64,000 nt of DNA from the NCBI GenBank assembly GCA_964036195.1, contig OZ038455.1, positions 10,061,855-10,125,854 of the forward strand. The letters run 5' to 3'. This document shows, in pieces, positions 3,241 through 49,800 of this stretch (positions are counted from its first letter, which is position 1; the number at the start of each line of letters is the position of its first letter). The notes under the pieces are model-generated. The model ran no database searches, was not told the DNA's origin, and worked only from the letters and a program-made list of their open reading frames with translations. The position numbers and the translations under genes are program-made. This stretch comes from Sphaerolaimus hirsutus (Eukaryota; Nematoda; Chromadorea; Monhysterida; Sphaerolaimidae).

Positions 3241-4098
3241 TATAACCTGTCTGCTAAAATATAAACAATGAGCATACAAAAATGTAGGTATGCAAGGGTA
3301 CAATGTACATTTTTGATGGAAAGTCGTTCCTTTTTCCTTAATCTGGAAAATTTCGTTATATTTAACGGGCCTGTAACTTTGTATCATCCAATTTGTTCCT
3401 TTATCCTTATTCTCATCTTTCATCAGTGAAATATTTACTTCAAAAAATAATACCGTATATCCTCTAAATACCCCCGGCGCAATTGCACTTGGGTAAATAC
3501 TTGGAACATGATAAAAAGGAACATGATAAAGATCTACTCCTTTGTTAAATTGGGGTGTTTCGGAAGTAGTTTAAATTGAATGCAAGTGAAAGTCTATATA
3601 TTCGACATTTTTTCCACTACTAGTGTGTTTCTTCCTTATTTGATCATAAATATTCGATTCAATATTTACTTCCGTGTATACACTTAACACGGGTGAAAAA
3701 TAGGGTAAAAAACACGCAATGTACAAATGCGACGAGTGAAGTGTAACGATGGCAAACGGTCGGAAAAAAGTATTTAAATTTTTAAGTGTTTTTTCTGAAA
3801 TGAATTTTCGAATTTTTCTCCAAAATAATTTTCGAATTTTGAATTTAATTTTCGAATTTCGAATTTTCGAATCTTTTTTGGCAATTTTCCGAATTTTTTT
3901 GGCTATTTTTCGAATTTTTTCAAATAATTTTTGAATTTTTTTTGAAAAATAAAGAATCTGAACCTTAAAACACAGAATTTGGACTGTTTTGATGTTTTTA
4001 TCAGTTTTAAACCTTATTTTCACCATAACTTAGCATTAAAATGGTGGGAGGAAGGAGTTATGGGGACCAGTGTGCTGCATTGCGTGTTTGCACATTCG

Positions 4099-4661
4099 CC
4101 CTACACACACTAGTTTTCACTGTGACTTGGGTGAAAACTGAAATGAAAACATGGCGACATTTAGGTTACAGTATGCTATCATATGCTATTATATGTGCCT
4201 TCGTTTTCAAATATTTTAATTTCAACTTTCATTAATCAAAATTATAATTCAATTTAATCATCCCACTGTGATGATTAATTTGCATTTTAAATTAAAAATT
4301 CAGTTTCACTAGTGATGTGAAAAGTGCCATAACTTTGGCGCCAAGTGCCAAAAGTGCTATGGTGCTTTTCTGACCCCTAGCACCAAGCACCAGAAGCTTT
4401 TTTTCTGTGGTGCTAGCACCAAGCGCCAGCACCAGGCATTTTGTTCCTGGCGCCTGTCAAAAATAGCGTCAATCGCCAAAAGCTAAATGGCGCTTTTCAT
4501 GGGCATGGCACCAAGCGACAATGGCACCACAACAAAATAGCGCCAAGCGCCAAAAGCACCATGGCGCTGTTTGCTTTGGCGCTAGCGCCAGGCGCCAGTG
4601 CCATGGCGCTTTTACATCACTTGTTTTCACTGAAGTCATGGTGAAAACTAGTGTGTGTAGG
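4099..4661. mobile_element. Nested CACACACTAGTTTTCAC foldback element
   Basis: Ends are CCTACACACACTAGTTTTCA and its inverse. Flanks CACATTCG and CACATTGC form an approximate 8-bp duplication. It is inserted in the TTCGAA element and is interrupted by a GGCGCC-type element. Confidence 0.65.
4310..4622. mobile_element. Nested GGCGCC-type element
   Basis: Ends are TAGTGATGTGAAAAG and CTTTTACATCACTT. The interior is built from GGCGCCAAGCGCCAAAAG units. Flanks AGTTTCAC and GTTTTCAC match at 6 of 8 positions. This is the innermost of three nested elements. Confidence 0.65.
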
Positions 4662-4923
4662 CACATTGCGGCACCATTTTCCCTTGGGCTGAATGCCTTC
4701 AAAAAAACACATGTCAGACACAACGAATAGGTAGTCAATTTTCATGTCATGAAAGCCAGAAAATTTTTGTCTGCACACAAAAAGTGTAAACGCTGCTTAA
4801 CGTTTCCATTTTTCATACGCGTCGCGTATCAATTACCGATTTATGTCACATGTTGAAAATTCGCAAAAAATTCGAAAATTCGAAAATGTTTTCAAATTTT
4901 TGAATCTTTTTTTGCCATCGTTA

Positions 4924-5791
4924 GTAAAGTGACGTATGCGCGTAAAGTTGTACACAGTCTACAGAAAACGAAATAACGGTGTTTGTCCGTCACGCCCAAT
5001 TAGAGATGGCCGGTGTATTTTAACGTTTAAAAAAATATCTTTTGAAAAAACACAGATATGAAACCGTTTTTAAAACGCACCCAATTTTTTTGTACTTATG
5101 GCCTATTTTGCAACCATTTTGCGCTCAAGCACGCAATTTCATACCTAGGTACACCTTACCGTTGGTGGTTGGATTCATTGATTTTGAGGCATTTTTAGTG
5201 TAAAAGCTTCCATTTGTTCATGCTATTGTCTAATAATAAGCCGTGTGATGTTAGTCTAAATAGCATAGAATATCCAACCAATGTGTTCCCACATACTAAT
5301 ACAGTGCGAAACGTGTCTTTCTTAAGCACTTTTCCATGCTGAACAAATGTTTGAACAAAATGTGCTATACATAACAATCAACATAAAAATGGATATTTTT
5401 GACAGAAATCACCACTTATAATGCTATCCCATGGCTCCGCAGCCATTCTATGGCGGTATAGTTATAACATCACAAGTATTGACACTTATCTTGTATTTAT
5501 ACCTGTATATTTTGCCTCATAACTATATTTGGGATCTTTAAAAAAACAGAGTTGTTGAAAAAAATTCCATCCCTACTCCCAATATTAATCAATCACAGAT
5601 CCGTGTGGAAATTTTCACTTTCTACACCGAAATAAATGGTCTTCTTTCGTCCATTCAAAACACGGTACCGGTAGACAAAAGCGCTGAAACTGGACACGCA
5701 ATTTCCAATGAAAACTGTTGACCTCGTCAGCAAACTTGCGTCCACCACTGGGAGGTGCGGGTTCGCGTTTACCGCCTGCGAAGTTTGATTG
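4924..5791. other. No gene recognised
   Basis: AT-rich spacer. Stops are frequent on both strands and no TIR pair was found. Confidence 0.4.
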
Positions 5792-5942
5792 TAGTGATGG
5801 AAAAGCGCCAGGAAAAATGGCGCCAGGTGCCAATGGCACCGTGACGCTATTCAAAGTAATGAGGCCACATAAAAGGGCGGCAGGCGCCATCTGAAAAAAA
5901 ATGGAGCAATAAATCATGGCGCCGGGCGCTAAAATAGCGCCA
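5792..5942. mobile_element. GGCGCC-type element, right end eroded
   Basis: The left end is TAGTGATGGAAAAGCGCC, as in the full copies at 17907 and 48392. The right half (GGCGCCGGGCGCTAAAATAG) has no matching CCATCACTA, so the copy is truncated or decayed. Confidence 0.6.
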
Positions 5943-6261
5943 ACAATTATATTTACCTATTTCACCATGTTTATCGATACAGAATCGTTTAAACTGCGGC
6001 GGCGTTATGTATTACATTCTTTGATGGTAAAAGGCCGAACACACTGCGTCTATCCATTAAAAAATCATAAAAAGTTTTGTTGGGAAGTGTTTTCATAGCA
6101 CTCTCTTGAGAGGGTCTTCAATTTTCAAAGGGTTTAAAAGAATCAAAAATGTGCCACACACACTGGATGTCAACTTGTAGAAACCCAGTTGACATCGGGT
6201 TTCATCGGATGTCAACTGTGCTGACTGGTTTCAATTAAGATTTTATTTGATGGGTTGCGGC

Positions 6262-6925
6262 TAGGGTTGGAAAAAAAACGTTTTTTTTTAACTCGATGTT
6301 TTTTTTAAAAAAAAAAACGTTTTTTTTTAAAAGCTCCCAGATATGACCTAGTGTCAACATATATAGGTATATCAGACACTGGCAATACTCTGTGATGTTA
6401 AATATGACCATATAATGGCTGTGGAGCCATGGGATAGCATTATAAGTGGTGATTTGTGTCAAAAATATCCATTTTCCGTCGACATATCGTTCGTATATCG
6501 CCTTATAGTCAAATGTTTGTGACTTCAGGTAAAGTTTGGCACGGAATGGTGATCAAACAAGGTTATAAAAGGAGGTTGTTACTTTGGGAGTGAAGTTACA
6601 CACTGTGGAGGTACATGGAAGCACATTACCTCAATATTATATATTACAGCAACATATGTCGGCTTATTCACCCATGGTAGCACATAGAAATGGATGTTTT
6701 GATACTAAAAATGCAACAAAACCAATGAAAACAACCACCAATGTCAATTTGTGTGTGAAATTGCGCGCTTGCGCGCAAAAATTTTGCAAAATACCTAGTG
6801 CTTAGTACTAAAAATTTCAGCCGATGTTTTTTTTAAAAAAAAAACATTTCGGACGTCATGTTTTTTTTAAAAAAAAACGTTTTTTTTAAAAAAAAAACGT
6901 TGAAAAAAAACATCGGCCAACCCTA
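6262..6925. mobile_element. hAT-like element with AAAACGTTTT interior
   Basis: Ends are TAGGGTTGG and CCAACCCTA. A perfect 8-bp duplication GTTGCGGC lies at 6254-6261 and 6926-6933. Subterminal blocks are AAAAAAACGTTTTTTT reiterations at both ends. The middle is ordinary AT-rich sequence. Confidence 0.85.
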
Positions 6926-7837
6926 GTTGCGGCGGGACCATGTTCAAATGTACATTTCAGTATTAATTCCTTTCCGACATTGCCGCATGTGCACTGATAA
7001 ATTGTCTCGCTACCTAAATTGGGTTAAAATCGAGTTGAAACCAGTTAACATCCAGTTAACTAGCAACGGACACAATTCACAGTGTAAATGAAGATTACCT
7101 AAGTGAAAAAGCCACAAAGTGTCGTTACTTAACCGTACTGTATCAATATTTGGCACTCACCATTAGCCCATTATCAATCAATTCATTCACAATTGATGCA
7201 GCAGATTTCGAGTCGTCACTCGCAATCATTATATTTTCTATGCCACTGGTTTTCACTTGAGATACTGAAAATTTGCCATATTTAAAAAAATTGAAACTGA
7301 AAAAATGCACAGTAAAAATACATTGAAAAGGTCATCAATTTTCGGAAAATATATTCAAATATAATCTCAGAAAATCTCTCAAGAATAAAATATAATTTAA
7401 TCTCTCTCAAAAAACCTGGAAAAAATACAAATAAATATAAATATCCGAGTTTGAGAAATTTTCTGATATTTTTTAAAATCTCACAGAATCTCACAAAAAG
7501 AAAATATAATTAAATCTCTCTGGAAAATTGTGGAAAAATTATAAATCTCAAAAAATCTGAGATTTTTAAATATGCAGAGATTTTGTCAATGCTAACAGTG
7601 AAACAAACGTATTGTTCTGATTATGGTTTGTTTCGAAGGGAAGCACATTTCTGTAGTGATTTTGTCGACCTTTTTCGTGAAGTTTTTCGTCAACGGATTT
7701 TCACTGCGCACTTGCAAGCATTGGTAGGATGCCATGAAATTCAACTGATTGTCCATTTTGCTCACACTTTGGCATGCACTTCGCCAATCCTGTGCCCACC
7801 TGTAAATATGCTACCTATTTGGTGTTGAGATAGGACA
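6926..7837. other. No gene recognised; AAATCTC-rich tract
   Basis: At 7330-7575 the motif AAAATCTCTCAAAAAA recurs, ending in AAAATCTGAGATTTT. It is probably another low-complexity repeat. No domain is seen in the flanking open frames. Confidence 0.35.
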
Positions 7838-8240
7838 TACCGTATTACATACTGAATAATTCCCCGGGGAATCATTTTCTTCCACAGACGTTTTTGAGGG
7901 GGCACTGTACAAAGGGGGGGGGGGTTATTCAAGTCGGGGTATTATTATATCATCAACTTTATCAAACACGTTTTTTATCACATTACATTCACATGTACGT
8001 CCTGTCTCCGTTGGTTGTGCACGTTTAATTACACCTTTGAACACCGGATTAGCTGCCTTCGCATTCGCCGAATCAATACCAGACACAGCTCTTTTGCCTG
8101 GTTTGACTTCATCGATTGTTTTAAAAAAGTTCTGTCCATCTTTCTTCCATCAGTGGGTGGGGAATTATTCAAGTGGGGGAAAGTTTTTTCCTCACTATTC
8201 TAACAGAGGGGAAAGATTCAAGTGAGGGAATTATTCGAAT
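7838..8240. mobile_element. Decayed TACCGTAT-type element, CTGAATAATTCCCC variant
   Basis: The left end is TACCGTATTACATACTGAAT. The interior carries GGGGTTATTCAAG and GAATTATTCAAGTGGGG motifs. The right end is poorly preserved, so the boundary is approximate. Confidence 0.5.
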
Positions 8241-8245
8241 TAATT

Positions 8246-10849: not shown

Positions 10850-11690
10850 CGGTTAAACGTCGTGTAGCGGCTTCACTCCAACACTCCCAGACGCTTCACC
10901 AAGCACGTTGGTGCTTCCACTCACATCACGAAAATCTACACGATAACACTTCACGCTTCTCGGTAGCCGCTGGCACGCAAGTCGCAAATATATACCGTAT
11001 ATCCTTGAATAAGACCCCCCCCTTGAATAATACCCCCCCTTGAATAACACCCCCTGTTGGCCAGGTGAGGAAAAAATAACGCCCCCCCCTTGAATAACTC
11101 CCCCCTCTTGAATAAGTTCCCTCTCTGGGTAAAACGATCGATGAGCAACACACTAAAATGAAAACAAGACAAACAGAAAAATAAAGCTATTTATGTCTGG
11201 GCTGATTCATCGAATGCAATCGAATGGGGTTTGGTGTGTGAAACGAAAAATACAAAAGAATGTTAGCCTATGAAATTTTTAGGTTTAGATGATTGAACAC
11301 GAATTTTAGGATGGATACGTTGTTTTGTTAGTGTTGAACTGGTCATTTTCTGCATTAGATGTGAGTACGGAATGCATACAAACAATGAATAAAGTGAAAG
11401 TTTTCCTGGAAGTTCTGAGGAAAAAATAACTCCCCCCCCTTGAATAGTACCCCCCCTTGAATAACTCCCCCCTCCAAAACCTCTGACGAAATAATAACGC
11501 CCCTGGGGTCTTATTCAAGGATATACGGTATGTTAGCGAAGCGTGTGAAAGTGCTAGCATTGTGAAGTGTCTTCCTCAACTTTGGAATTTCGTGAAGCGT
11601 GTGGAAGACACTTCACCTGAAATTTCGTGATGCTGGTGGAAGCGTGTGGAAGCGCGTCGCTTCCACACGCTTCACAAACCCATCTTTTGC
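10850..11690. repeat. GCTTCACACG foldback, interrupted by another element
   Basis: Left motifs such as CACTTCACGCTTCTC are mirrored on the right by GAAGCGTGTGGAAGCG and CTTCCACACGCTTCAC. The element at 10993-11530 lies between the two halves. Outer boundaries are approximate. Confidence 0.5.
10993..11530. mobile_element. TACCGTAT-type element, CTTGAATAAGACCCC variant
   Basis: Ends are TACCGTATATCCTTGAATAA and TTATTCAAGGATATACGGTA. At least four CCCCCCTTGAATAA units are stacked at the left and more on the right. A unique AT-rich core lies between them. Confidence 0.8.
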
Positions 11691-12164: not shown

Positions 12165-12367
12165 GGCCAGTTCTGCAAATTGAGAAGTGAGGAGTAAAAT
12201 GGCACAAACGAAGTGAATTGAAAAGTAAAATGGCAAAAGCGCAGAGAAATTACTTTTTATTTTTTACTTTGCTTTTGCCAATTCACTTGCCATTTAACTT
12301 CGCCTTTGCCAATTTACTTCGCATTTGCCATTTTACTTCTCATATCTCAATTTGCGGAACTGGCGCC
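12165..12367. repeat. CCAGTTCTGCAAATTGAGAA foldback
   Basis: The left arm begins CCAGTTCTGCAAATTGAGAA and the right arm ends TCTCAATTTGCGGAACTGG. Between them AAAATGGCAAAAGCG-type units are inverted about the centre. A related element lies at 54208-54305. Confidence 0.7.
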
Positions 12368-13027: not shown

Positions 13028-13827
13028 TAGGGTGGCAGACGGTACGGCCTTGCGGTAAACCGTACGGTACGGTAAATTTACTATTTTGCGGTAAACGGTA
13101 CGGTACGGTAAATCTTCAATTTTGCGGTAAATGGTACGGTACGGTAAATCTGTAAAGTGCGGTACGCGGTACGGTACGGTACGGTACGGTAAATTTCCGA
13201 TTGTCAGAATTGTATCAGTGCCGGACTACAGAGAACTTTTACTTCATAAATTGACACCAAATTCATTGACACAATTTGATAAATGGACTTAAGAACCCAA
13301 TAACAGTATGATGACATAAAATTCCATTACCCACAATGTAGGGGTTCAATATATAGGTTCATTCAATGTGTAGAAGGAAGAAAATGAAGAAAAATTACTC
13401 AAAGTGGGTGAAAAATTGCTAAAAGTAAGTGAAATTTACACCTTAAGAGCGTGTTGAAGCACATGGCTTGATTTTATAAACACATTCTACTAATGTAAAT
13501 CATGACTTATATCAATGAAATGAAAGAGCTTCAAATCAGGAAAACAGTGCTGTGAAATTTGCGTGCTTGCGCGCAAAAAAATTTCAAAATACTGCGTTAA
13601 TTGTCATCAATAAATTGGCATATTTAATGTCAATCTGAGTAAAATTTACCGCATTTTCTGCGGTAAATGAGTGCGGTACGCGGTACGGTACGGTAAATTT
13701 TGGAAAATGCGGTACGCGGTACGGTACAGTAAATTTCTAAAAGTGCGGTAAACGGTACGGTACGGTACGGTAAATTTCCCAAAAATGCGGTACGGTACGG
13801 TACGGTACGGTAAATTCTGCCACCCTA
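13028..13827. mobile_element. hAT-like element with CGGTACGG interior
   Basis: Ends are TAGGGTGGCAGA and TCTGCCACCCTA. A perfect 8-bp duplication ACAATTGG lies at 13020-13027 and 13828-13835. Both subterminal regions are built of GCGGTACGGTACGGTAAATT units. The middle (13200-13640) is AT-rich and resembles part of 2850-2930. Confidence 0.9.
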
Positions 13828-17906: not shown

Positions 17907-18813
17907 TAGTGATGGAAAAGCGCCAGAAAAAATGGCGCCAGGCGCCAAGGGCGCCATGGCGCCATTCGGAAAGTGAGCGCCAAGCGCCAAGGGCGCCACA
18001 GAAAAAGGGCGCCAGGCGCCAAGGGCGCCATGGCGCCATTCAGAAAGTGGGCGCCAGGCGCCAGGGGCGCCACGGAAAGAGGGCGCCAAGCGCCAAGGGC
18101 GCCATGGCGCCATTTGGAAAATAGGGCGCCAGGCGCCAAGGGCGCCAGGATAAAAAAGTGCCTACAACACCATGCGTGTGCTAAAAATGTTTCTACAGCA
18201 CCATTGTACGCGCATTCACTTCTTAATTCGCGTTCTCCAGGATGTAATGAACAAAAACAAGGCTAGCAACAAAAATTTTTTTGAATAAAATCCACATGAC
18301 GAATTCAAACGCAATGGAAATTGTCATTTGACAACAATCCATTCATTACAAATAGACCTTTCCAAACAATGTTTCCTAATTGCAACGATTTAAATCCGTT
18401 TATTTATGATTTTGCAAGTTCGTCGGTCCATCATTCCTGTCTTCTGATCCGTCAGACAGATCTGATGAACCGTTGGACGAAAGATTTCCACCCACTCACA
18501 CCACTCCGTCCATTTTTCTGGCGAATTTTGATCATCCACGGATGCGTTTTTCATTTTTTTTTCGTTTACACGGCACTCACCGTGAAACCCTGCTGGCGCC
18601 TTTTTGGCGCCCTTCTAAAGCAGGGCGCCAGGCGCCAAGGGCGCCACGGAAAAAGGGCGCCAAGCGCCAATGGCGCCATGGCGCCTTTCAGAATGTGAGC
18701 GCCAGGCGCCAAGGGCGCCACAGAAAAAGGGCGCCAAGCGCCAATGGCGCCATGGCGCGGCGCCCTTTGGCGCCCTCAAATGGCGCCAGCGCCATGGCGC
18801 CATTCCATCACTA
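17907..18813. mobile_element. Full-length GGCGCC-type hAT-like element
   Basis: Ends are TAGTGATGGAAAAGCGCC and GGCGCCATTCCATCACTA. A perfect 8-bp duplication ACTCTAGT lies at 17899-17906 and 18814-18821. Each subterminal block of about 200-250 bp is made of GGCGCC units spaced by CAAGG, CATT or CAGAAAAAG. The central 440 bp is unique and is shared with the copy at 48392-49295. Ala/Arg-rich open frames across it are by-products of the repeat. Confidence 0.92.
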
Positions 18814-20503: not shown

Positions 20504-21703
20504 TACCCTAAATCTTCGAATAAGACCCCAGGGGAGTCAATTTTTCGGCAGGGGTTTTTGAGGGGGTGTTATTTGAGGGGGAGTTATTTTTCCTCAGAAA
20601 TCTTGGACTTCATTGATTGTATGGTGCAGTCTGTCAACTCATGTGATTCAGGTATTTAACTGTCCAACAAAAAAAATATGTGTATACACTGCATACACCA
20701 ACGATGGAAAAAACACAGAAATTGAACACAGAAACTCATTGAGTTTCTGTGTTTTTGTTTTACACAGAAACACGGAAACTCACGAATTTTGAAAAACTCA
20801 AAACTCAAATGAGTTTTTTTTTGGAGAACACAGAAACACAGAAACACGGAAACACAGAAAAGTTTTTTGAGTTTTTGAGTTTTTTTCAGCGAAGTGGTTG
20901 AACACATTTTCAAAACGCACATGAATTCAGTTAAACTAAACAAGATAAGATATGCATGTATAGCATGTAAATATGTACATAATGTATTCAAATTTTATGA
21001 TGGAACAAAAAATAATTTAAGGATGGCATGCACATCTCCTGGTGGACATGTTTAAATATAGTTGAAGTTCAAATCAATTCTGGTGTCTTCCATACAGTGC
21101 ACATCCATTGAAGAATTTTGGAGTACTGTGTAAATTGTCCTTTGTGAGCATTTTGTTGATGCTGGTGTTGCGATGTGGGTGGATGTCCTCATTGAGGACA
21201 TTTTTATGGACTTTTTTGACACTTGAATGAATACACTTATGTTATGTGGGGTTAAAACATGTGCAAAACCAATATTTTATAATAAAACCGCTGTTTCCAC
21301 ATCAAAATGCCGTAAATCAGACTTTTTTGGGGGAAAACTCAAGTTTTTTAGACAAAAACTCGAGTTTTTTTAGAAAAAACTCAAAAAACTCGAGTTTTAA
21401 CAAAAAACACAGAAATAAAAACAGAGTTACTCAAGTTTTTTTCGATAAAAAAACTCAAAACACAGGTATTCATTTTTGAAAAACTCAAAACACAGAAAGT
21501 GTTTTTTTTTGGAGAACTTACCCATCGTTGGCATACACATCATGTATCTACTGTCGCTGCCATAGGCTAATTTTCTGTTGTATTTTTGTATTGTATCCTT
21601 TTCATCCAAAGGGGGAGTTATAGTTTCCTCACCTCGCCAACAGGGGGTGTATTCAAGGGGGAGTTATTCGAGGGGTGGGAGTCTGATTCGAGGATTTACG
21701 GTA
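20504..21703. mobile_element. TACC-type element, CTTCGAATAAGACCCC variant, interrupted
   Basis: Ends are TACCCTAAATCTTCGAATAA and TGATTCGAGGATTTACGGTA. Its interior matches the uninterrupted copy at 52931-53344, including GTCCAACAA and TGTGTATACACTGCATACAC. That pins the insertion of the 832-bp element at 20699-21530. Confidence 0.8.
20699..21530. mobile_element. hAT-like element with ACACAGAAACTC interior
   Basis: Ends are CAACGATGG and CCATCGTTG. A perfect 8-bp duplication GCATACAC lies at 20691-20698 and 21531-21538. The ends are filled with CACAGAAAC, ACTCAAAA and AAAACTCGAGTTTT units. The middle (20890-21290) is AT-rich. Confidence 0.9.
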
Positions 21704-22703: not shown

Positions 22704-22718
22704 GCGTCAATTTTAAAA

Positions 22719-31800: not shown

Positions 31801-34800
31801 CTTAGAGCAGCATCATAAAATGCCACAAGAACAAAGCAAGTGCACACGCACTGCGGCCCACGCCATGTACTCTACTAATCATGTAAACCTGCCACCACTT
31901 ATCCACTGTGTTGTGCTAATATCCCATAAACACATGACTGGCAGGTCTACATGACTAGCGGGTTTACGTGACTAGTAGGCCTACGTTGTTACTGATTATA
32001 AATATGTATGTTCAGTAATGTTAATTAAGGTGGAGGATAATAATTTTTTACACACAATGAACAATGAAAAAATTCCAGTGTATCCAAATGCATGCGGTCA
32101 GAACCAAGAGCCAAAATTGTCAGCCACAACGGGTTTGCCCGAGTTCTGTTCAAGTGATGAATCTTGCGGCCGGAATCAGAATGGCGCCTATTGGTGTCAT
32201 ATTGGCTCGGTATCGGAGACGACCATGTGCTGCCCAAATGGTATGTCTGAAAACAATTTACTTTCCAACAGTTGACCAGGAAAAATGCGGGTGAAATCAA
32301 TCACTGCAAAAATGGGTTTGTTGAGTACATGGATGGGTAATGAATATCACATTAACACTTCAATAAAAGCCAAAAATGTGCACTAGGAATTTTCTAGTGC
32401 ACGGAAAATTGTGACAAGCTGTGCACTTGACAAACCTTGCAGCATGAAGCATCTGGAGGTGCGATGAATGCTTCACAACGACTCTTCATAACTCTTCACC
32501 GCGCATCTCACACTCATTATTACTATAAATGATTATATCCACTGATGATCAGCTTTTAATGTAGGTTAAGAATTTCTGTACTAATTTTTTAAAAATGCTT
32601 CCAGCCGTCACGGACGTTTGTTCACTGCCAAGAAATGGCGGGTCCAGTACCGAAAGTCTCGTCAGATGGCATTTTGATGCAAACGCTAAAAAGTGCATGC
32701 CATTCACGTACACTGGACTTGGTGGCAACCAGAACAATTTCAGGAGCAGGGAGGAGTGCCTTAGAAAATGTCCTGGTTTGTTATATCGCTCGCAGTTTTT
32801 TTAATAAAATTTTTGGTGGCTTTTTAAGTCAGAGGAGTGACTGATTTTATATTTGATACGGAAGCCACTTAGCGCTTTTCTTGGGCATGGTGCCCAGCGC
32901 CAATAGCGCCACGGCAAAATGGCGCCAAGCGCCAAAACCGCCATGGCACTTTTTATTTTGGCTCTAGCGCCATGGCTCTTTAGTATCACTACTGGTACTC
33001 AGGAGCTATGTAATCACTTTTTAGCTAAATATAATAAAACCATTCCAAACGCAGAATTCATCAACCCCTGTCTGGCTGGCCAGCCGGAAATGGTTCAAAG
33101 CGGCCGCAACAGCAGTCCAAAACAATGCAATGCATTCGATTTGTCAAATTCCTGCAGTCAGGGCTTTTACTGTCATATTGGAGGGAATCCTGATAGCACT
33201 GTGTGCTGTCCCAATGGTGATTGAATTTGTCGATATTGGTACCACAGAAGCTAGTTTTCATGGTTCCAATTTGAAAACTTGATTGAAATTTTGTCGATCT
33301 ACTTGAACAGTTCATGGACTGATCATTTCTGTAAATTAGTAATTGCATCGTTATACTAGTGCGCTGAGTCTAAGTGGTCAGTTGCGGGATGGTGGAAGTG
33401 TCAATCAGCGTTCGCGTCGCCATTCAGTTTTTAAATCAGTTTTCAAATTGGATCCATAAAAACTAGCTTGTGTGGCCACATTGTGAAATAATTACTGATT
33501 TCCATATTCATTTTCGAGCACTTTTTCAGTCGGCGACCCGTGCGCGCTGACGGAAAATCCCGGGGAGGGCAATTTACAATTGAGAAGGTACAAATTTGAC
33601 TCTACTTCACGCCGCTGCACAGAGTTTGTCTACAGGGGCATGAAGGGTAATAATAACAATTTCATTAGCGAGCAGCAGTGTGCGGAAACCTGCCCAGGTG
33701 TGTATACATACGGAATATATACCTACCGTATATCCTCAAATAAGTCCCCAGGAGTCATTTTTTTCGTCAGAATATTTTGTGGGGGAGTTATTTTTTCCTC
33801 ACGCTCACAACAGAGGGGGTTTTGAGCGGGACTTATTCGAGGATATACGGTAGTTTTGCTTTAACCTACCAGTTTGATCTAACTAGGTGACAACTGAATC
33901 ATTGTTTTGTATCATTTCAGTGTTCATCAGCCCCTGTGCCAGTGCCAGAAATACGGGATTGTTTTTCAGCGAGGGTCTACAGCAGCAATCGACAATGTCA
34001 TGCTCACCTCTGAGGTACATAACTTTTGATTTTACAAGTTTTTTATACATCGATTCACCATAAAATGAGTAGAAAATTGGGGACAATTGCTTTTGCTTGC
34101 GCAGACCAGTGTGTCCAGATGGCTACTTTTGTCACATCGGTGCTGACACAGACACGACACTTTGCTGTCAGGGAGGTGTGCTGCATTTTTAATCCACTTT
34201 ATACTCAAATATGCCCTCATACACTTGTCTATTTTTATATGTCAAATTTACAGATGCTAACCCCTGCAACCAGATGAGAAATCCGGGCAGCGGTAATGGA
34301 AATCTACCTCGATTTTACTATGATTTTAGCAGCAGACAATGCTTGCCATTTACTTACAAGGGTCTGTACGGAAATGCAAACAACTTTCTTACAAAAATCG
34401 ATTGTGAGGTAAGACTCTTTAATTCCTTGTATTACAAACTTCTCAATTCAATCTGTTAATCTCACAATGTAACACAATGTAACTTTTACAAACCATTAAT
34501 CAGACCAAATGTCCCACGTGGATAAACGCGTGTCCCATCGAGTTGCCTCTGATGGCGCAGTCTCAAAACAAGCCCGTGTTTTGTGATGGGGACCAGAAGG
34601 GGTGCCCCAGTGGTTATTGGTGCCATTTTGGATACACTGAAGTGACCACCATGTGCTGCAAGGACATTGGTTTGTGTTGTGAAGTTTTAAGCGAATTTGT
34701 AAACTGTGGTCAAGACAAATGAATTGTATGGGATGTTGGTCAGTCATTATGCGTTTGAGACACAGTAGTGCATGGATGCATCGGTTTCCCATTTATTTCA

Positions 34801-37800
34801 ATCATATATTTGAAAAAATTCAAAGCTCAAAATCTCAAATTTTCCGACTGTCGAGGTGAAAATTTCTCCTGCACTATCCCACTGTAGAGATGCAATCTGA
34901 AATGTTACAAAAAAACTATTTTCAATTTTTATATCAAATCTCACATTCCTTACAAAAGTAATTTTTCCCCATGTCACAGGTCCAAGCGCCTGCGATCAGC
35001 CAATGTCTCAGGGCACGGGGGATGCGCAGATGTCCAGATTTGCATTCGACTACAACAGCAGAACTTGCGTTCCATTCGTGTATAGAGGTACGTTCCTTTT
35101 TATATTTACATTTATTGTCAATATTGACATTATTGACATTTTTGAGACAACATCGGTGTTGAAATATATTCTGACTGTTTTCCTTGTCAATCATCGCAGG
35201 ACTCAAGGGCAATATGAACAATTTCTTGAGTAAATCGGCATGTGAAACTATTTGTCCAGTGTTTGACAATCCGTGTCCCATTGGACAGCCCATTTTGGGA
35301 CCAAATAAAAGGCCGCAAGTCTGCAACCCTCTGGATGTCAACTCCTGTCCCGATAATTACTTTTGCCACGCTGGTCAGTTTACGTTTGATTTATCTTTAA
35401 TATAATTACTTAATGTATTTCCTCGAAATACCCCTTAGGGGTGATTTTTTCAGAGTGCAAATTTTGAGAGGGGGTGAACGAAGGGGGTATTTCGAGGGGG
35501 AGGGGCTTTTTAATACATAGTAGCCATTTCGCGGGGGGTATTTCAAGAGGGGGGGGGGTATTTGAGGAAATACGGTACATGCGTTTTTATGCGATGTAAA
35601 ACGTGCTGAAAATCTCACTTTTTGAAGAACTATTCCCTATAGTGATCCATTCCCAAAAACACTAAATTCACATTCAATCCAAGAAACCCCCAATCACAAT
35701 CCACTTTCCACAAACTCAGGGGGTTCGCCAGACACTACATGTTGTTGTCAAAAAGCGACGCCCGACCCATGCAATGCGAAGGCACCCCAATCCGGCACCG
35801 GAACATTCCAACTGCAGAGATATTATTTCGACACGTTCAGCAGACAGTGCAACAAGTTCACTTACAGGGGGTTGAAAGGCACTCAGGTGGGTGTTGATAT
35901 TTAGGGGTTGGCAGGTGGGAAGTTTGTGGTTAGTGATGGAAAAATACCGGGGAACCGGTTCCCCGGTGCTGGGCACCGAAAGGCACCAGCACTGGTGCCT
36001 TTCGGTACGGTGCCATTTTTCGAGTGTGCCCTGCAATTTTTTTAAAATAGCACCTGTGTCGGTGCGGTGCCATATTTCCCGGTGCCTTTTCCTTCACTAG
36101 TTGTGATGTTTGCGATATTGTGGGATATTTGTACCAATGGTAAAAGATTTGGCAACACTTTTCCATAAATCAACTTTTTGGGCTTATTGATAGTAAGTAG
36201 AGGCGTCAATTGTTTCTGTGATATAACAAGCGATTTCCCAGTATCAGATTTCGATATTCAGATATTTATTCTTTTGATAGGCAACTTTCTCTCACCTCAA
36301 TGTGAACATAAAATATTGTAAACAAACTTCATCGCAGAATAACTTCGTATCACTGGCACAATGTGAGAACAGTTGCCCAGTTTTCGAGAACCCATGTCCT
36401 GACAGTTTTGGTGCTGGAAATTCATTGGATGCAGGTTTGTTCCTCATGCCGATCATTCTACTACCTATATTTAAAAGTTAAAACCGGAATATTTTTTATA
36501 ATTTTTTTCTAGATCGACTAATTAAATGCTACCCAACAAATTTGAATTGCCCCTCGAACTTTTGGTGCCATGTGGGTGCAAGCGATGAGAGCACTTTATG
36601 CTGTCCAAATGGTATGTTGATTAACTTTATCTAGGTATGTAAACAATACACACCATTGTTTCTCAAATACCGTATTTCCTCGAAATACCCCCCCCCCCGC
36701 TCGAAATACGAGCCAGACTCGCTGTGCATTTTTACCCGCTGTGCATTTTTACCCGCTGTGCATTTTTCGCTGCCCGGTGTGCATTGTTGCCCGGTGTGCA
36801 TTGTTGCCCGGTGTGCATGGCGGCCGCCCCTCCATGCACACCGGACCGCCATGCACACCGGGCAACAATGCACACCGGGCAGCGAAAAATGCACAGCGGG
36901 TAAAAATGCACAGCGGGTAAAAATGCACAGCGGCACAGGCTCTCGAAATACCCCCCCCCCCCCCAATATAGTGTATAGAGGACGAAAATGACAAAGCTAC
37001 AGTTTGCTCCGGGAAACGCCGAATACACATTAAAAACAATGTTTGTGTTATGTTAGAACAGGGTTTATAATGTCTAGGTACTTATAAACGTCTATAGAGT
37101 CTTACAGATGACCGTTTTTGTTGCATGTTTCAACGTCTGTGCACGTTACAAACAACAATTTAGTACTGGGATTTCAAAAACTTTCTGGCGATAAAATAAC
37201 CCCCCTCGAATTACCCCCCTCGAAATACCCCCCTCAAAATTCTCACCCTGAAAAAATAAACCCCCTGGGGGTATTTCGAGGAAATACGGTAACTCGATCT
37301 ATCACAATTTGTGATTCACAAATGTCTTTTCTAAACTTCTCCCCCCACCCGCAGCAAAAGACGCATGCGCGCAGCCAATGAGCAGGGGTCAGGGCTCCGC
37401 CCAGCTCACCAGGTGGCACTACGACCCTGTGACAAAAAGTTGCAGCCAGTTTGTTTACACCGGCATGAAGGGTAACCAGAATAATTTCCTGAGTCAACAG
37501 CAGTGTGAACTGCAGTGTGATAGTAAGTTGCGTTTTAGTTTAAATGGGGGGGGGGTTTGTCAGCGGGCAGGGGACTGGGTACTCTCTCATTCCGGTCCAG
37601 TTAAAATTTGTACACATACCCACAAAAAATACAAACATTTCAAAAATCGAATTGAGAATGCATATCTGTAAACAAATTTACGAAAAGATTCTTTTGTATT
37701 TGTGTCTATTACAAGCCGACATTGCTAATTTATCTATCCAAACATATTCATATCTGAAGAGACGTTTCAGAAAATCCATTAGAACTTAGGCTTGAACTAT

Positions 37801-40800
37801 ACTGTAAATGGCAAAAATTTATGCAAGGAATGTGTCCTGCATCGTTTTGGATGGCTATACAACAAATAGGTGTAAAACTTTTGATCAAAAAATAGGTCTA
37901 AAATCTGGTAGGTTTTCGTCTTTTACTCTTCCTATCTAATTCTATAAAAAGTTCTTAAAAGCATTATCGTATTACTGAACCCCTACTGAATCTACCTATA
38001 ATCCCTAAAAGTTATTCACACCTCAACTTAAACATTATAAACAAGTAACCCTCCCCGCACCCAGCGTTCATCAACCCCTGCTCCAACGGTGATGCCCTGC
38101 GCTCTAGCGGCAACTCGGTGACCAAGTGCAACCCCAGTTTCCCCTGCCCCACCGCCTACTACTGCCACATTGGCAAGGACGAGGAGTCCACCGTGTGTTG
38201 TCCAGCGAGTCTGTTTGTTTTGGGATTGTGGAGACACCTGGGGACAGTCCCGCATTTTGGAAAAGGGCCCTGTAAAATGTCAAATGTTATGCGAAGTGTG
38301 AAAAGGCGTGTAAAATGCCCTGGAAAATGGGTGCCATTTTACAGAGCATTTTTCATGACTTTTGGCGCATATTGCATGATATTTGAGATTTTACAGGGCA
38401 TTTTACATGGTCAGGGAGTACCCCCTGGGCCCAGATTTGATGAGAACAGTAAGGCACCTTAAATAAAGCATTGTAGCAGCGGTAATCCGCGTGTCGGGCG
38501 CTTTACTTTCTAAACACCTTCCCGATCAAGTCCGGCCCCCTATTTTTATTTTCACTTGCATGCCCTATCTCCGGTTGTGTGAGGGGTGGAAAGCTAATAC
38601 TTGTGAGGTATATAGGTGCAACCCCCCACTACCCCTCATGAATAAATGGGGCAGCGGCGACTCATTATAGAGGGGGTCGCTGTATATGTGAAAAAAATTT
38701 GCGGCGTTTTCACTGTCCCGCACAGGTCCAGCCCCCAGTTTATTTCTTACGCTACGGCTTGTAAAAGGAAAATGGTGCTAAGTGCTAATGACATTCTCAA
38801 ATGGCGCCAGTGCCATGGCGCCATTATATCACTAATCCCGATGCCTCGATATTTTTTCCCAATCCCAAACCTTAAATTTGAAAAGGCTTTTTTCTCTTTT
38901 ATTTTGTAACAAACTTGACCCGCTGGTTTAGGGTGTTTTATAGAGGAAGGTTTAAGGTTCCAAGTTGCGTAAATAACTATACCCCAAAAATGCCTCCATT
39001 AGAAAATTTACTTGGGGTTAATTCAGAATAGAAAATGTTGACAATTTTTGTTCCTGTAATGGTGTAGTTTTGACATCATAAATTTCACCCCAAGTAAATT
39101 TTATAATTGAGGCATTTTAGAGGTAAAGTTTTTTATGCAGCTTGGAACCTTTTTCCCCCACTCTTAAAAACATCCTAAACCAGCGTGTGAAGTGTGTAAA
39201 AAAATAAAAGCAAAAAGTGAATTTTTAAGTTTTTCTTTTTCTTGTCTGCTGCTTAGGGGGTGGGTGTTTGTGGAATGTTTGTGGCTTAGGACCATGGCAC
39301 TGGCGCCATTTGAGGTAGCCAAGTGGTGCCACACCATGGCACTTATTTCCTGTGGCGTTATTGGTGCCTGACGCCTAGGGTGTCAACTTTCCGTTTTCCG
39401 TTTTCCGTTTCCGCTTTCCGCAGCCAAATTTTTTTCTGTTTCCGTTTCCGTTTTCCGGCTGCTAAATTTTTTTTCCGTTTCCTTTCCGTTTTTCCGGCTC
39501 ATTTTCCGTTTTCTGGCTAAAATTTCAGTTTTTCCGCCTTTTTTCCGTTTTCCGGCTCAATTGTCTGTTTTTCCAACTTTTTACCATTTTCTGACTCAAT
39601 TCTCTGTTTTCTGTTTCAGCCAAACTGGTAAACATGCATGCAGGTTCTCAATTATGTGAATTGTTTCTATGTCTGGCAAGATTTCTGCAAATTTTTTGAT
39701 TTCTGGATAAATTTCAGCAATTTTTTTACCGTTTCCGGCAAAATTTCAGCAATTTTTTTCCGTTTCCAGCATAATTTCAGCAAATTTTTCTGTTTCCGTT
39801 TCCGTTTTCCGGCCTTTCATTTTTCCGTTTTCCGTTTTCCGGCAGGTGCAAAAATTTTTCCGTTTCCGTTTTCCGGCAAGTGTAAAAAATTTTCCGTTTC
39901 CGTTTCCGTTTTCCGCCAAAAAGTTTTTGTTGACACCCTACGACGCCCCTTTTTTCAAGCCATAGCGTGAGAAATAAACTGGGGGCCAGACCTGTGCGTG
40001 ACAGTGAAAACACCGCAAATTTTTTTCACATATACGGCGATCCCCTCTATAGTTAGTCGCCGCTGCCCCATTTATTCATGAGGGGTAGTGGGGGTGCACC
40101 TATATACCCCACAAGTATTAGCTTTCCACCCCGCCCACAACCAGAGATAGGGCGTGCGAAGTGAAAATAAAAATAGGGGGCCGGACTTGATCGGGAACGT
40201 GTTTAATTGAGTGTGGTACCAGGCAATGATTGAACATTGTATTTTTTAAACGTACCATGTATTTTTGAATTATTCCTCGAGGAGTGACTCTTTTTGTCCT
40301 AATGTTTGAAAAGATACACAAACGAATAGCTGGGCGATTTGGGGGTGGGACCCCCAACTCTCTCCCTTCCCTACCCCTGGTGGACGACATGGGTTATATT
40401 CGAGGAGCTTATTCGATAATATATGGTACTAAAATCTTGAATTCATTCTTATCACACATACAGGGCGTAGTCAGAATATCTTCACAGTGCATATTTCAGA
40501 AACCAGTTTTAATATATAACACTGTGCCAAACAGCTTGCTGCATATTTTAAGAACACATTGTGCACCCTCACAAGTGTTGAAATGTTCTGATAAATACAT
40601 GCACATCCACCCACTGATACGTGTGTAAATGCATGCATTTTTATCAGTTTGGCGAAATGGAAAGTTAAAAAAAATTAAAAAAATTGTGCAAAAATGTCCA
40701 GCTATCATTTTGATAGTAATACAATTTAATGCATGTAATATGCATGTCGGCTAAATGCACGCAGTTACACACAGCAACTGCTTTACGAAAATACAGCAAC

Positions 40801-43800: not shown

Positions 43801-46800
43801 TAAATATTGAAAAACACTCTTGTAAAATTTGCAACCTCTTTGTCACTGATCCCTGTTAAGATTAAAAATGCATATTGTAGACTTAATGATGGTGCTGAGT
43901 TTACAGCTAAAAGTGTGATACAAAAAATGTTTTTATTATTATTTTAGAATAATGAATTGAGGGACGGATCCTTTTATAAGCTGGCATGGCGAAAACTCTG
44001 TTGAAGGACCTCATCATGCTCCGGCCATATCTGAAAATGAATTTTGCGTGTTTTTTGCTTTAGTAACAAACCAAAATTCAGAATATTCAACTCAAAATTA
44101 CTCTGGCAAAGATAGCTAATTGAATGAACTGACTTCTAATCTAGAGCGATCAAGATAATTGTTAAAGTGTATACCTTGTGTTCAGTTACAAACTCGCCAC
44201 TAAATCGATTAATAAAAACAGTCAAAAAATCAATTCCGTATTTTTGCATCCCACCTTTCATCAGTAAACTCAGCCGCAATAGTGCCAACAAACAAACACT
44301 GCACAAATGACCCCATTACCCCCCAAAGCACACATTTACCCCCCACTCATCGATTTTAGTGTTCACAAACCCCTGCTCCGGAGGCCAGCCGAAAATGGGA
44401 CCAAATAACCGGCCGCAACAGTGCAGCATAAATGGCGCCGATTCTTGTGGAGCTGGTGGATTTTATTGCCACATTGGCGCCAGTTTGGATACCACCGTCT
44501 GCTGTCCAAAGTGTTGGTTGCTTTTTTGCATTTGTGTTGTGTACAGGGGGCACACCTGTAAGATGCCCTGTAAAATGTAAAAGGTCATGCAAAGTGTGAA
44601 AAGTAATGTAAAATGACTTGAAAAATGGCACGACTTTGCTAAATATGTATTTTCCTGTCTTATTATAAAACATTGTTCTCTGCAATTCTTTCATCATGGA
44701 CTACCAAGTCAGAAAATCTAGCGAATTTCGCTTGGCACAAAATTTGGAGGATTGCCAACAAATTTAAAAAAAATTAAATACTTAACTTTTCAGTGGGCCC
44801 ATCCGCGTGCAACCAAGCGAGAACCAGCGGAACAGGCGATGCTCAATTGCAAAGATACTATTACGATGCGAACTCTAGGAGATGCGCTCAGTTTGTGTAC
44901 AGAGGCTTTTTTGGCAATGAGAACAATTTCCTGACTGAGAAAGCCTGCCAAAATGCGTGTCCAGGTTGGGCATTCTTTGATTTTGTTTTGAAAATGCAAA
45001 TTGTGTGAGGGATTACAAATTCATTTCATATAGCCATGACGGGTATCCTAACATTTCAAAATTAAGATTTTGTAAAAAACCATTTCCTATATAGCGGAAC
45101 AAAAAAACGTTCGAACGCGGAACAAAAAATCTCGATCAGTGTACCTAGCGACTAGTGATGGAACAGCGCCAGAAAAAAGCGCAAAGCGCCAATGGCGCCA
45201 TGGCGCCATTCCATCACCTCTAGCGACCTTATCCTGGAACCTGATAAAAAACCCTCCAAACACCCCCCCCCCCTCCACAGTCTACACGAACCCGTGCGTG
45301 GGCGGCAGTCCCATGACCCCCATCACATTCTGCTCGCTGGCGACCGCGCAGAGGGCCTGTGGGCCCAGCGGGTGGTGCCACATTGGAGACCCCTCTGCTG
45401 TGCCCACGTCCACTTTGTGCTGCCCTCAGAGTAGGCGGGGCTTGGGCTTGTGGGGATTGGGGGGGGGTGTTTGGGGGGATTGTGTGGAGGGGGGTATTGG
45501 GTGTGATTATAGTGTGACGTGAAATAGACACCTCTGGGGGTACTCCCAGGGCCTGTAAAATGTCCTGTAAATTGTAAAATGGCATAGAAAATGTAAAATG
45601 TCATTCAAACTGTCAAAAGTCGTGGAAGATGCCCCGGACAATGGCAAACTCGTTACATTTTACATGACTTTTGACACCTCGCATGACATGAAACTTTTTA
45701 CAGATCCTTGCCCCAACATCTTTTGTCAAGAGTTCTGGGTAATATTGTAGAATCTTACATATTTCTACCTATTTTTCCAATTTTCTGTCCCATTTCTTTC
45801 TAGGGAGCGACCCCTGCATCCAGCCAAGGTCTACTGGCTCAGGGAACTCCAACCTACAGAGGTGGTACTATGATGTGAGATCAAGGAAGTGTGAGCAGTT
45901 CTCCTACAGGGGGCTGTACGGAAATCAGGTTTGCTGAACTTTGGCACACTTTGTATTGAACGACCGCTGGGCGGATAGTTACATAGTTCCGGAAGTTTGC
46001 TATACATATTCTTCTGAATGATGTCACGTGACATATTTACTGTGTGCTAAAATACCCAATGGTGAAAAATGTAATGCAAGGAAAAATAAAATCTTTCCCA
46101 GTATTCAGATGGGTTATGGTAGATTTATCTACCGTATTTCCTCGAAATACCCCCCCTTGAAATACCCCCCCCCCCTCGTTTGACCCCCCCCCTCTCGAGA
46201 CCACTATGAAACAATCACCCCCCCCCTCGAAATACCCCCCCCCAAATTGAGTGTAAAGGGAACGTACATGACAATAACTGTAGTTTGTGTTCAGTGTACT
46301 GCAGAACACACGTTAAAACAATGTCGGTGTCACGTTAGAACAGTGTACATACCATCTACATACTAATATTAGTCTACAGAACCTTATAAATGGCGGTTTT
46401 TGTTGCATTTTTCGACGTCTGCGTACGTTTCAGACGACAATTTCGTACTTGGTTTTCAAAAATTTTCTTGTGAAACAATAACCCCCCCCCTCGAAATACC
46501 CCCCCCCTCGTTTAACCCCCCCCCTCTCGGGACCACTATGAAACAATCACCCCCCGGGGGGTATTTCGAGGAAATACGGTATACAGCCTAGTGTATAGCA
46601 AAGTGTAAAGCCAATTCAAATCCCTGTGCACTTTCACCTCCATTCAGTTTTAATGACCAGTCAACAATTGTGCATCTTGCAGAATAACTTCGTCACTTTG
46701 TCATCGTGTGAGAACACGTGTGATGTGCTCGAAAATCCCTGCGCCAGAGGTGAACCTGCTTCCACGAGTTCAGGTCAGTCATGACAATATTACATAAATA

Positions 46801-49800
46801 TACACGAGCCTGTGCCTCTCCGAATGTAAACCCGCCCCGAATGTATACCCGCCCCGAATGGAAGCATACCCGCTCTGAAGGTAAGCCCGGCCCGAAGGTA
46901 ACTGATGCTACCTTCGGGCCGGGCTTACCTTCGGAGCGGGTATACATTCGGAGCGGGTATTCATTCGGGCCGGGTTGGAGATAAGCGGAGGGGGGGGGCA
47001 CGACTGGCGGCGCGTGTGCACCCATCGGCGCGGTGCGGCAAACACAAAGGGCAAATAACAATACAAAATGATACCCGAAATTGAATTTCAACTCATTTCG
47101 GGTATCATTTTCATCTGCTAGTTTTCATCATTTTTGGGAAAACAACATGGAACTAGCAGTTGAAATTGAAACCCAAAATTGAAATTTTGTACCAGATTTC
47201 AATTTCGGGTTTTTATTTCAGCTGCTAGTTTCATGTCGTTTTCACGAATACGTTGAAAACTAGCAGATTAAAATTATACCCGAAATGAGGAGTAAAGATA
47301 CCCCAAAATGTCGGCAGATCGTTTTCCAAGATGTCGTTTTCTGTTCGATTAAATGTCGGCAGATCATGTTGCACAAATGTTGCTCGAAAAGACACTGAAT
47401 CGCATGCCGAACCGGGGGGGGGGTCACTCATCAAACATCAAATATCGGTTGCGGTCTTGGCGGCAAAATATAAAGAGCCATGCATTGCTGGGCCTCATTT
47501 GTATTGTTATTTGCCCTTTGTGTTTGCCGCACCGCGCCGATGGGTGCACATGCGCCGCCAGTCGTGCCCCCCCCCCCACTAATCTCCAACCCGGTCCGAA
47601 TGTATACCCGCTCCGAAGGTAAGCCCGGCCCGAAGGTAGCATCAGTTACCTTCGGGCCGGGCTTACCTTCGGAGCGGGTATGCTTCCATTCGGTGCGGGT
47701 ATACATTCGGGGCGGGTATACATTCGGAATGAGCCTTGGTCAATATACACCTGTCATTTGCACATTTGACAAATTCGTGATTGTGCGATGGAATGAGTCT
47801 ACCGTATTCCATCGAAATATCCCTTCAAAATACCCCCCCTCAAAATACCCCGCTCAAAATGGTCACTATGAATTCATAACCCACACCCTCGAAATATCCT
47901 TCTCGTTTAACCCCTCAATATTTCCACTCAGAAACAATCTCCTCCGGGGGTATTTCAAGGACGTTTTTTCTGAAGTTTTGGGACGTGATCATGCCACATA
48001 CATTAATGCTTATCCATACCAATTTTCCAGGTCCCCAGTTCTGCACGGAAATCAATCCGAATGTGTGCCAAAGTGGTTATTATTGTCATTTTGGTGGTCA
48101 GAGAGACACAACCTTGTGTTGCCCACAATGTGAGTTTTTCTTTGCTTGTCCATTGTACGTGTTTACAACTAGATGTGTAAAAATATCGGAGAAGTAAATT
48201 AACAATTTTTCCAATGAAAACACAAAAGAACTTTACAGTGAAGTGGTCCAAGAAAAAATCTAAAGCATATGTATGATTTTATCAATATTTTCTTACCCAC
48301 GTTCAATATACATTAACCACAACACTTCGAATTTTCCAATTTTTCTTTGCCGTCGTTAGCGTTAGACACGGGGCTCTCCTACCCACACACCTAGTGATGG
48401 AAAAGCGCCAGAAAAAGGGGCGCCAGGCGCCAATGGCGCCATGGCGCCATTCGGAAACTGGGCGCCAAGCGCCAAGGGCGCCACAGAAAAAGGGCGCCAG
48501 GCGCCAAGGGCGCCATGGCGCCATTCGGAAAGTGGGCGCCAGGCGCCAATGGCGCCACGGAAAGAGGGCGCCAAGCGCCAATGGCGCCATGGCGCCATTT
48601 GAAAATAAGGGCGCCAGGCGCCAAGGGCGCCAGGATAAATAAGTGTGTATGATACCCTGCGTGTGCTAAAAATGGTTCTCCAACACTTTATTTCACACAA
48701 TCACTTCTTTAATTATGTTCTCTAGCATGTAATCAACAAAAACGAAACTAGCAACAAAAATTTGGCATAAAATCATATTTACTTACGCGTAAATTTTAAT
48801 TCAAACGCAATGAAAATTATCGCAAAGCATTCACCTCAAATAGATTTTTGCAATGGATGCTTTTTGAAGTGGATAAAAACGGAATTAAAACGATTTGAAT
48901 CCGTTGATTGACAAGTTTGTAGGTTGCACGGCCCATCATTCCAGCCGAAGTGTCTGGAAAACCATTGGACGAACGATTTCAGTCCACTGGCACCACGTGT
49001 ATTTTTCCAGCGAATTTCGATTATCCACGGGCGCGCTTTTTTCTTTTTTATCGTTTTCGCAGCGCTCACCTTGAAATCCTGCTGGCGCCATTTTGGCGCC
49101 CTTTTAAAGCAGGGCGCCAGGCGCCAAGGGCGCCACGGAAAAAGGGCGCCAAGGGCGCCATGGCGCCTTTCAGAAAGTGGGCGCCAGGCGCCAAGGGCGC
49201 CACAGAAAAAGGGCGCCAAGCGCCAATGGCGCCATGGCGCGGCGCCCTTTGGCGCCCTCAAAAGGCGCCAGCGCCATGGCGCCATTCCATCACTACACAC
49301 ACCCCAATAACCTGTCAAAATACGCAAATTCACACTTGTCACGCATTTCCAGTGGGCGGTTCAGCGTGTGCCCAGCGCGTGGAGCCGGGAAATGGACAGT
49401 ATTCCCTGTCCAGATTTTACTATGACGCACAAGTGAAACAGTGCAGGCCATTCACATATTCCGGTGCCGGTGGCAATGAAAATCAATTTCTGTCCCAAGC
49501 GCAGTGCGAGGCTCAATGTCCAGGTTTGACATTTTAGTGTTGGATTTTTTTGGATTTCTCTGAGGTACGGTTGAGCACATTGTCAGGTGTTTGTGCCAGA
49601 GATAATAAATTTAAACTTATAATAAAGTTTACGGTGATACGAAAGTTTGGAAATAACCAGTGAAGTTAAACTGATAAGAAAATGACATGAATGACAAGAA
49701 TCACCTATTGTATCCAAATTATTCCCCCGACACTATCGATTGCGATGCCGCCAACATCAATTTTGAAATTTTGAAAAATTTCTTCCACCTACACCAACCC

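Follow-up and report, generated by a model that had tools for sequence, protein, structure and literature searches.

Candidate hAT transposons of Sphaerolaimus hirsutus carry dense, family-specific word arrays at both ends

Results

Eight hAT-like elements in a 64-kb window

The DNA analyzed here (the window: the whole stretch of 64,000 nucleotides from contig OZ038455.1 of the nematode Sphaerolaimus hirsutus, positions 10,061,855 to 10,125,854, forward strand) contains eight hAT-like transposons, E1–E8, whose ends are filled with arrays of a short word, a different one in each family. An initial annotation had proposed eight such elements with YARNG ends and, in most of them, 8-bp target-site duplications (TSDs). 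All eight start coordinates held, and a short terminal inverted repeat (TIR) starting YARNG was present in 8/8. The TSDs were exact in six, in agreement with that proposal, with 7/8 matching positions in the element at 3744 and a slip of one base in that at 39376. The window scan used YARNG ends, 14-bp TIRs with no more than two mismatches and 8-bp TSDs with no more than one. In this strict form it returned seven elements (3744, 13028, 17907, 24143 and 48392, together with 29024–30006 and 60911–61039) and none in each of 20 local shuffles; a looser scan, with 0–2 hits per shuffle, added 20699–21530, 29239–29803 and 35931–36099. The elements at 6262 and 39376 have TIRs below the scan length, and their ends were read by eye.

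E1 (3744–4923, 1180 bp; TTCGAA family) has TIR TAACGATGGCAAA and TSD GTGAAGTG/GTAAAGTG (7/8). E2 (6262–6925, 664 bp; AACGTT family; TIR TAGGGTTGG) and E3 (13028–13827, 800 bp; CGGTA family; TIR TAGGGTGGCAGA) lie within exact TSDs, GTTGCGGC and ACAATTGG, respectively. The GGCGCC family is represented by E4 (17907–18813, 907 bp; TIR TAGTGATGGAA; exact TSD ACTCTAGT) and E8 (48392–49295, 904 bp; exact TSD CACACACC). E5 (20699–21530, 832 bp; ACACAG/AAACTC family; TIR CAACGATGG; exact TSD GCATACAC) has a second copy of 95% identity at L064:1816–2646, with its own exact TSD (GCCGTCAC). E6 (24143–24910, 768 bp) is of the CGATAT family, with TIR TAGGGTTCAAACGATAT and exact TSD GCTCAAAC, and E7 (39376–39940, 565 bp) of the TTTCCG family, with TIR TAGGGTGTCAAC; its duplication reads CTGACGCC on one side and CGACGCCC on the other, which match once the slip is allowed. 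Each family has its own motif, as had been claimed, but the fillers number seven, since E4 and E8 belong to one family.

Position, composition and direction of the arrays

The interiors of the elements had been described as strings of the motif. Counted in 50-bp bins, however, filler words sit in the outer ~150–250 bp of each end, and the bins between the arms hold none or single words, so that a filler of the whole interior was rejected. With arm limits set by eye, E2–E6 and E8 have a middle of 378–479 bp and E7 one of 65 bp; that of E1, at 870 bp, includes an older, nested GGCGCC-type element (4310–4622; ends TAGTGATGTGAAAAG / AAGTGATGTAAAAG). The top 6-mer exceeded all 30 shuffles in E3, E4, E6 and E8 and failed to do so in E1, E2, E5 and E7, because the A/T runs of these four inflate the null. 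The fillers had also been called mostly palindromic, but the only 6-bp palindromes among them are TTCGAA, AACGTT and GGCGCC, and palindromes of this length beat the Markov maximum in the arms of E4 and E8 only. For the 12-mer ACACAGAAACTC, previously taken as a filler motif, one exact occurrence per strand was found; that filler combines ACACAG with AAACTC words. The observed/expected ratio of CpG is 0.89 for the window, 2.0–5.3 for the arms of E1, E2, E3, E6 and E7, and 0.86–0.94 for those of E4, E5 and E8. The first core lies at bp 12–16 in 8/8 left ends and 4/8 right ends, counting for E1 an ACGG at bp 13 instead of TTCGAA, a choice made after inspection.

Although the TIRs are inverted, the arrays at the two ends run in the same direction in 6/8 window elements. 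CGGTA occurs in forward/reverse-complement orientation 17/0 times in the left half of E3 and 18/1 in the right half, and TTTCCG 15/0 times in each half of E7 (30 in 565 bp). When the two arrays of an element were aligned, direct/inverted scores were 129/23 for E3, 173/46 for E4, 60/32 for E5, 148/66 for E6, 81/18 for E7 and 157/45 for E8. E2 gave a tie (58/59) and E1 leaned toward inverted (26/45); the words of both are palindromes, whose orientation carries little information. Two comparison elements scored 32/33 (C1, hAT-like, 29024–30006, TSD TGTGAGTG, no subterminal array of its own seen) and 17/268 (C2, an inverted-arm element nested in C1, 29239–29803). Foldback-type and Mutator-type elements carry repeats within long inverted arms; repeats near the ends are common to them and to the present elements, but their arms are inverted and the arrays here are not. 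Inverted-arm architecture of the foldback or Mutator-like kind was rejected for E3–E8, in which the direct score exceeds the inverted.

Association with hAT transposase remnants

The hAT dimerization profile (Pfam PF05699) was searched against the 348-Mb genome from which the window comes (762 contigs; 108 candidates scored), and at least 28 matches were obtained. A TIR and TSD scan around these loci, with YARNG as its sole prior (the shuffle control applies to the window scan only), returned the ends TAGGGTGTCAAC, TAACGATGGCAAA, TAGGGTTCAAACGATAT and TAGTGATGTAAAAGCGCC with TSDs, plus a few other end pairs at L063 and L074. The hAT domain lay within an element at 17/28 loci: nine TTTCCG, seven TTCGAA and one CGATAT. 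TSDs were exact in 15 of these 17 and 7/8 in L057 and L063. The TTCGAA seven include a twin pair, L068/L069, of which L069 was omitted from the filler count (n = 16); these two lie 3.8 kb apart on contig C626 with identical TSDs and are probably a tandem duplication or an assembly duplicate. The matching filler was present in both outer quarters of 16/16 elements, with at most one copy in the middle half. The initial annotation had named non-matching autonomous relatives as an outcome that would refute its reading; none of the 16 counted elements, which enclose C-terminal transposase remnants, had a non-matching filler.

Array direction in these elements could be compared with that in the window. 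All nine TTTCCG elements were direct (92–169 vs 16–25), as were the arrays of L063, L064, L056 and a GGCGCC-type neighbor element of L061; for six TTCGAA elements the direction was undecided. At L060–L062, CGATAT arrays flank the domain, as judged by alignment to E6, and the L064 element does not include the domain; L067, L071, L075 and L079 were not assigned to any element. A further family was delimited by hand: L056 (1266 bp) and L059 (1003 bp) share CAGAGTTG ends, lie within exact TSDs and carry TTTACG arrays around a hAT C-terminus. The transposase C-termini of the TTTCCG, CGATAT, TTCGAA and TTTACG families are distinct.

Three window families share these remnants. In E6, a hAT C-terminal coding remnant (24538–24593, minus strand; NLKPENADIL and FLQHALKQL) was recovered by tblastn with the C-termini of L060, L061 and L063; its fragments are singly weak (E 0.03), and E6 aligns to L060–L062 over nearly its full length. 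Both arms of E7 are 85–91% identical to L072, L073, L074 and L077, which retain a mid-element hAT C-terminus, and bp ~1–340 of E1 are 80–83% identical to TTCGAA elements enclosing a hAT C-terminal remnant. The proposal of hAT identity with one filler per transposase is upheld for TTTCCG, TTCGAA and CGATAT, to which TTTACG can be added, and not for the other four fillers: GGCGCC, CGGTA, AACGTT and ACACAG elements were seen around none of the 28 loci, and these families are candidate hATs by their TIRs and TSDs.

Copies of the GGCGCC family and constraint on the word

The left 309 bp of E8 gave at least 40 further matches in the genome (40 of 2514 candidates scored). Twenty copies, picked by left-arm likeness, were fetched; because of this choice, constraint can be judged without bias in the right arm only. 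Exact TSDs flank 17/20, the seventeenth being a copy of 1109 bp. In L032 the TSD is 4/8, L051 lacks a right end over 10 kb, and L052 is compound without a matching TSD. Three suspected long parents were rejected, proving to be the 1109-bp copy with its exact TSD, the copy lacking a right end in 10 kb and the compound one.

E4 and E8 are 94.9 and 97.5% identical in their arrays and 74.2% in their interiors; gap columns number 0 in the left array (235 bp), 7 in the right array and 52 in the interior. For 18 aligned copies (E4, E8 and 16 fetched copies of 850–1000 bp, with L032 in and L034, L037, L041 and L043 out), divergence from the majority was 0.74% (left) and 0.29% (right) in motif columns, 3.0 and 3.9% in spacers and 9.0% in the interior; CpG columns diverged by 0.48% in the arms and 13.7% in the interior. 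Variants present in two or more copies fell in 2/157 left and 0/137 right motif columns, compared with 6/80 and 7/64 spacer columns and 122/439 interior columns (p = 0.0003 for motif against spacer in the right arm). Single-copy variants numbered 14/157 and 7/137 in motif columns, 14/80 and 14/64 in spacers, and 96 in the interior. A weaker motif effect, seen across sublineages, was obtained for eight TTTCCG copies (L057 and E7 not used), with divergence of 4.3% in motifs, 9.4% in spacers and 8.8% in the interior.

Two interior-free GGCGCC elements carry exact TSDs: 45153–45219 (67 bp; CTAGCGAC; ends CT, not TA) and E9 (60911–61039, minus strand, 129 bp; CATGCATG). Either TIR and array were carried in by transposition, or the middle was lost later between the same-direction arrays. 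A repeated word over ~200 bp at both ends with a dispensable interior was found, though interior loss may postdate insertion.

Separately, older GGCGCC-rich stretches resembling elements with decayed TAGTGATG-like ends were noted by eye at 60773–60893 and 32870–32993, and remnants of the family appear to be numerous across the 64 kb.

Change of filler between relatives

Several related elements differ in their words. E10 (35931–36099, 169 bp; TSD 6/8; loose scan) has GGCGCC-family ends but GGTGCC/CGGTGC words. E2b (5001–5575, minus strand; TSD CGCCCAAT/CTCCCAAT), a decayed relative of E2, is ~71% identical to it in the interior and more diverged in the arms (E2b ends taken two bases off). E2 and E3 share a 33-bp interior block despite their different fillers (6761–6793 and 13559–13591; also E2b 5104–5136, minus strand); its hairpin, TTGCGCGC-TT-GCGCGCAA, is perfect in E2 only, with four mismatches in E3 and five in E2b. 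L055 has CAGAGTTG-type ends and a C-terminus like those of L056 and L059, but CGCGTA instead of TTTACG words. These cases suggest that filler words change as a set.

Together, L055 and the adjoining L081 make up an element of 6006 bp, whose 11-bp ends (CAGAGTTGTTA) are identical and whose TSD (CGCCAAGG) is exact. Its hAT dimerization domain scores 62 bits (4.8e-17), and its C-terminus matches Hermes chains (9.3e-13). This related element is the one in which an N-terminal BED zinc finger was identified: a predicted intron interrupts the finger, which at 22.2 bits exceeds the cut-off of 20.6. Bp 13–160 of the left end hold nine CGCGTA/TACGCG words and 18 CpG; 2/500 Markov sequences had as frequent a top word, and 0/71 interior windows as many CpG.

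Other features of the window

A TA-type transposon family, flanked by T and A and ending in ACCGTATTTCCTCGAA / TTTCGAGGAAATACGGT, is present at 10994–11529, 36669–37290, 46131–46580, 60169–60273 and 63491–63730; its C-run arrays score, in that order, 78/14, 21/14, 103/14, 42/8 and 18/14 (direct/inverted). Inverted arms of 17-bp units (ACCTTCGGACCGGGTAT; GCTGTGCATTTTTACCC), 97 and 92% complementary, lie at 46812–47735 and 36710–36942, respectively. Exons with Kunitz_BPTI and Lustrin_cystein domains (Pfam) were identified at 28671–29108, 48923–49534, 55027–55479, 28004–28630 and 38049–38459 and look like those of a long-intron animal gene, the two domains being a pair common in nematodes; E8 ends ~70 bp ahead of a Kunitz domain. 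Scanning the window for Rfam families and tRNA genes gave no match.

Three sequence patterns searched against viral contigs returned 1, 0 and 5 stretches, and one pattern searched against prokaryote genomes returned 15. The 16 viral and prokaryote GGCGCC-pattern matches were rejected as lacking a right TIR and having at most three GGCGCC in the next kb; the five viral CGATAT-pattern matches were rejected by eye as coding sequence without an array. E4 had no match among phage records.

Discussion

We consider it likely that these elements are internally deleted, non-autonomous hATs of several lineages, and that their arrays are putative binding arrays for BED-finger transposases, kept under selection. 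In each lineage, both ends would hold, from ~bp 12 to bp 150–250, a dense array of that lineage's own short, usually CpG-containing word, which would be the recognition site of its BED zinc-finger transposase. The array would raise the local concentration of transposase on the ends, so that a larger array may raise mobility, and a copy with TIR and array could lose the coding interior and still be mobilized. The shared array direction might help to distinguish left from right end, or ease interior loss. The hAT-type BED proteins tested so far favor words of three classes, CGG, GCGC or AT-rich, and in four hAT-encoded BED proteins the motifs match their own subterminal regions (PMC8097297). CGGTA and TTTCCG match the CGG class, GGCGCC the GCGC class, and TTCGAA, AACGTT and CGATAT the AT-rich class; ACACAG/AAACTC fits none clearly. 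These word classes, the position of the first core, the lineage-specific words, the enclosed hAT remnants, the L055 element and the constraint on GGCGCC motif columns are the grounds for reading the arrays as putative transposase-binding arrays.

A number of observations weigh against this reading. No motif protection was seen in six TTCGAA copies (motif 3.5% vs spacer 2.1% and interior 2.5%) or in five close TTTCCG copies, which fits neutral decay after insertion. The GGCGCC sample is biased, its right arm only being free of left-arm selection, and single-copy variants are also depleted in motif columns (right arm, p = 0.0008). Selection on source copies does not predict this depletion if such variants arose after insertion; it does so only if many singletons are source variants sampled once. 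The depletion could also come from gene conversion between array units or from a reduced rate of mutation. In four right ends, the first core lies at bp 25–40. Four fillers (GGCGCC, CGGTA, AACGTT and ACACAG) are without transposase evidence, and window families are without a full-length parent: for TTTCCG, CGATAT and TTCGAA, none was seen among the PF05699 loci, mostly ~3.2 kb of each being examined. L055 is a relative outside the window families, the reading frame of its putative transposase gene may not be intact throughout, and its right end is unremarkable, with 78/500 Markov sequences reaching the top count. Same-direction arrays also occur, clearly in 3/5 nearest end pairs, in the non-hAT TA-type family, and are therefore not peculiar to hATs here; array growth may not be hAT-specific. 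In Hermes, mutation of the inner left-end sites leaves ~70% of activity (PMC10368747).

Several of these points would also be expected if slippage and template switching in post-excision repair amplified end words under any transposase, with gene conversion keeping them uniform. The imperfect higher-order units of 16–74 bp in the arrays, the TA-flanked family with its unrelated TIRs (ACCGTATTTCCTCGAA), the unprotected TTCGAA motif and the singleton depletion in GGCGCC all favor such neutral growth. We nevertheless regard it as rather unlikely, since the left GGCGCC array is gap-free between E4 and E8 while the interior is not, shared GGCGCC variants are scarcer in motif columns than in the spacers within each array, and the arrays are confined to the outer 150–250 bp, begin at ~bp 12–16 on the left and use one word at both ends. 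Arrays may also arise through repair or slippage in general, with selection retaining those that are useful.

Binding of a host protein (a repressor or a methylation or silencing factor), or a role as promoters or nucleosome-free regions, would suit the CpG-rich words of E1, E2, E3, E6 and E7, which are plausible host-factor sites; a host factor, however, would favor one common word, and the word varies with the transposase C-terminus, which makes this improbable. Capture of ordinary satellite after insertion has in its favor that short tandem words dominate the arms, but is hardly credible: the same word stands at both ends inside exact TSDs in 17/20 GGCGCC copies and 15/17 transposase-domain elements, so the word moves with the element, and the motif-specific conservation of GGCGCC also argues against it. 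Captured satellite was rejected on these multi-copy elements with TSDs.

If the arrays are transposase-binding sites, a more speculative and somewhat doubtful extension is that the genome holds a library of orthogonal transposon address codes, in which BED specificity switches, arrays are rewritten in concert and direction gives polarity. Array polarity would then let a transposase tell left end from right end. Where subterminal sites are scarce and degenerate, end recognition by BED fingers is difficult to study; in this genome the putative binding word is spelled many times per element, so that the sequence itself could reveal a recognition code. The arrays also bear on how sister transposons become mutually independent, and provide an example of an array changing in concert, perhaps after a change of DNA-binding domain.

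Among known systems, Ac, Tol2 and Hermes need their subterminal ends (PMC3260210, PMC10368747). The transposase of Hermes, a house fly hAT, is octameric, with BED domains on subterminal repeats, and a quasi-palindrome at bp 11–27 of its left end (LE11–27) binds two BED domains (PMC10368747); the first core of the present left ends, at bp 12–16, falls within the corresponding interval. The two ends of Hermes have 17 and 14 AAGT/AAGC sites, with left sites 2–7 antisense and right sites 1–5 sense (PMC10368747), whereas the arrays here run in one direction. Herves, an Anopheles hAT, likewise has one motif, CG/AATTCAT, at both ends, and a probe with four direct motif copies is bound; unlike the present arrays, it has several copies only, and its left end adds three 100-bp tandem repeats (PMC3143072). 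The CGG-binding proteins (CGGBP), hAT-19-like, fall into specificity classes like these fillers but are mostly domesticated proteins (PMC8097297).

The closest likeness is to maize Ac/Ds. It had been stated that no described class is defined by this architecture, which was too strong: Ds2 shares the plan, with ~200 bp of subterminal sequence containing transposase-binding hexamers around foreign filler (PMC3260210). As a hAT with 8-bp TSDs, it keeps ~200 bp of repeated hexamers (AAACGG) at both ends around a variable interior (PMC3260210). The arrays here look much denser and differ from Ac/Ds in having several words in one genome and both arrays in one direction. A literature search gave no title or abstract describing such an architecture. 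The elements follow the Ac/Ds2 plan in an exaggerated form; the array density, the several distinct words in one genome and the shared array direction are apparently new.

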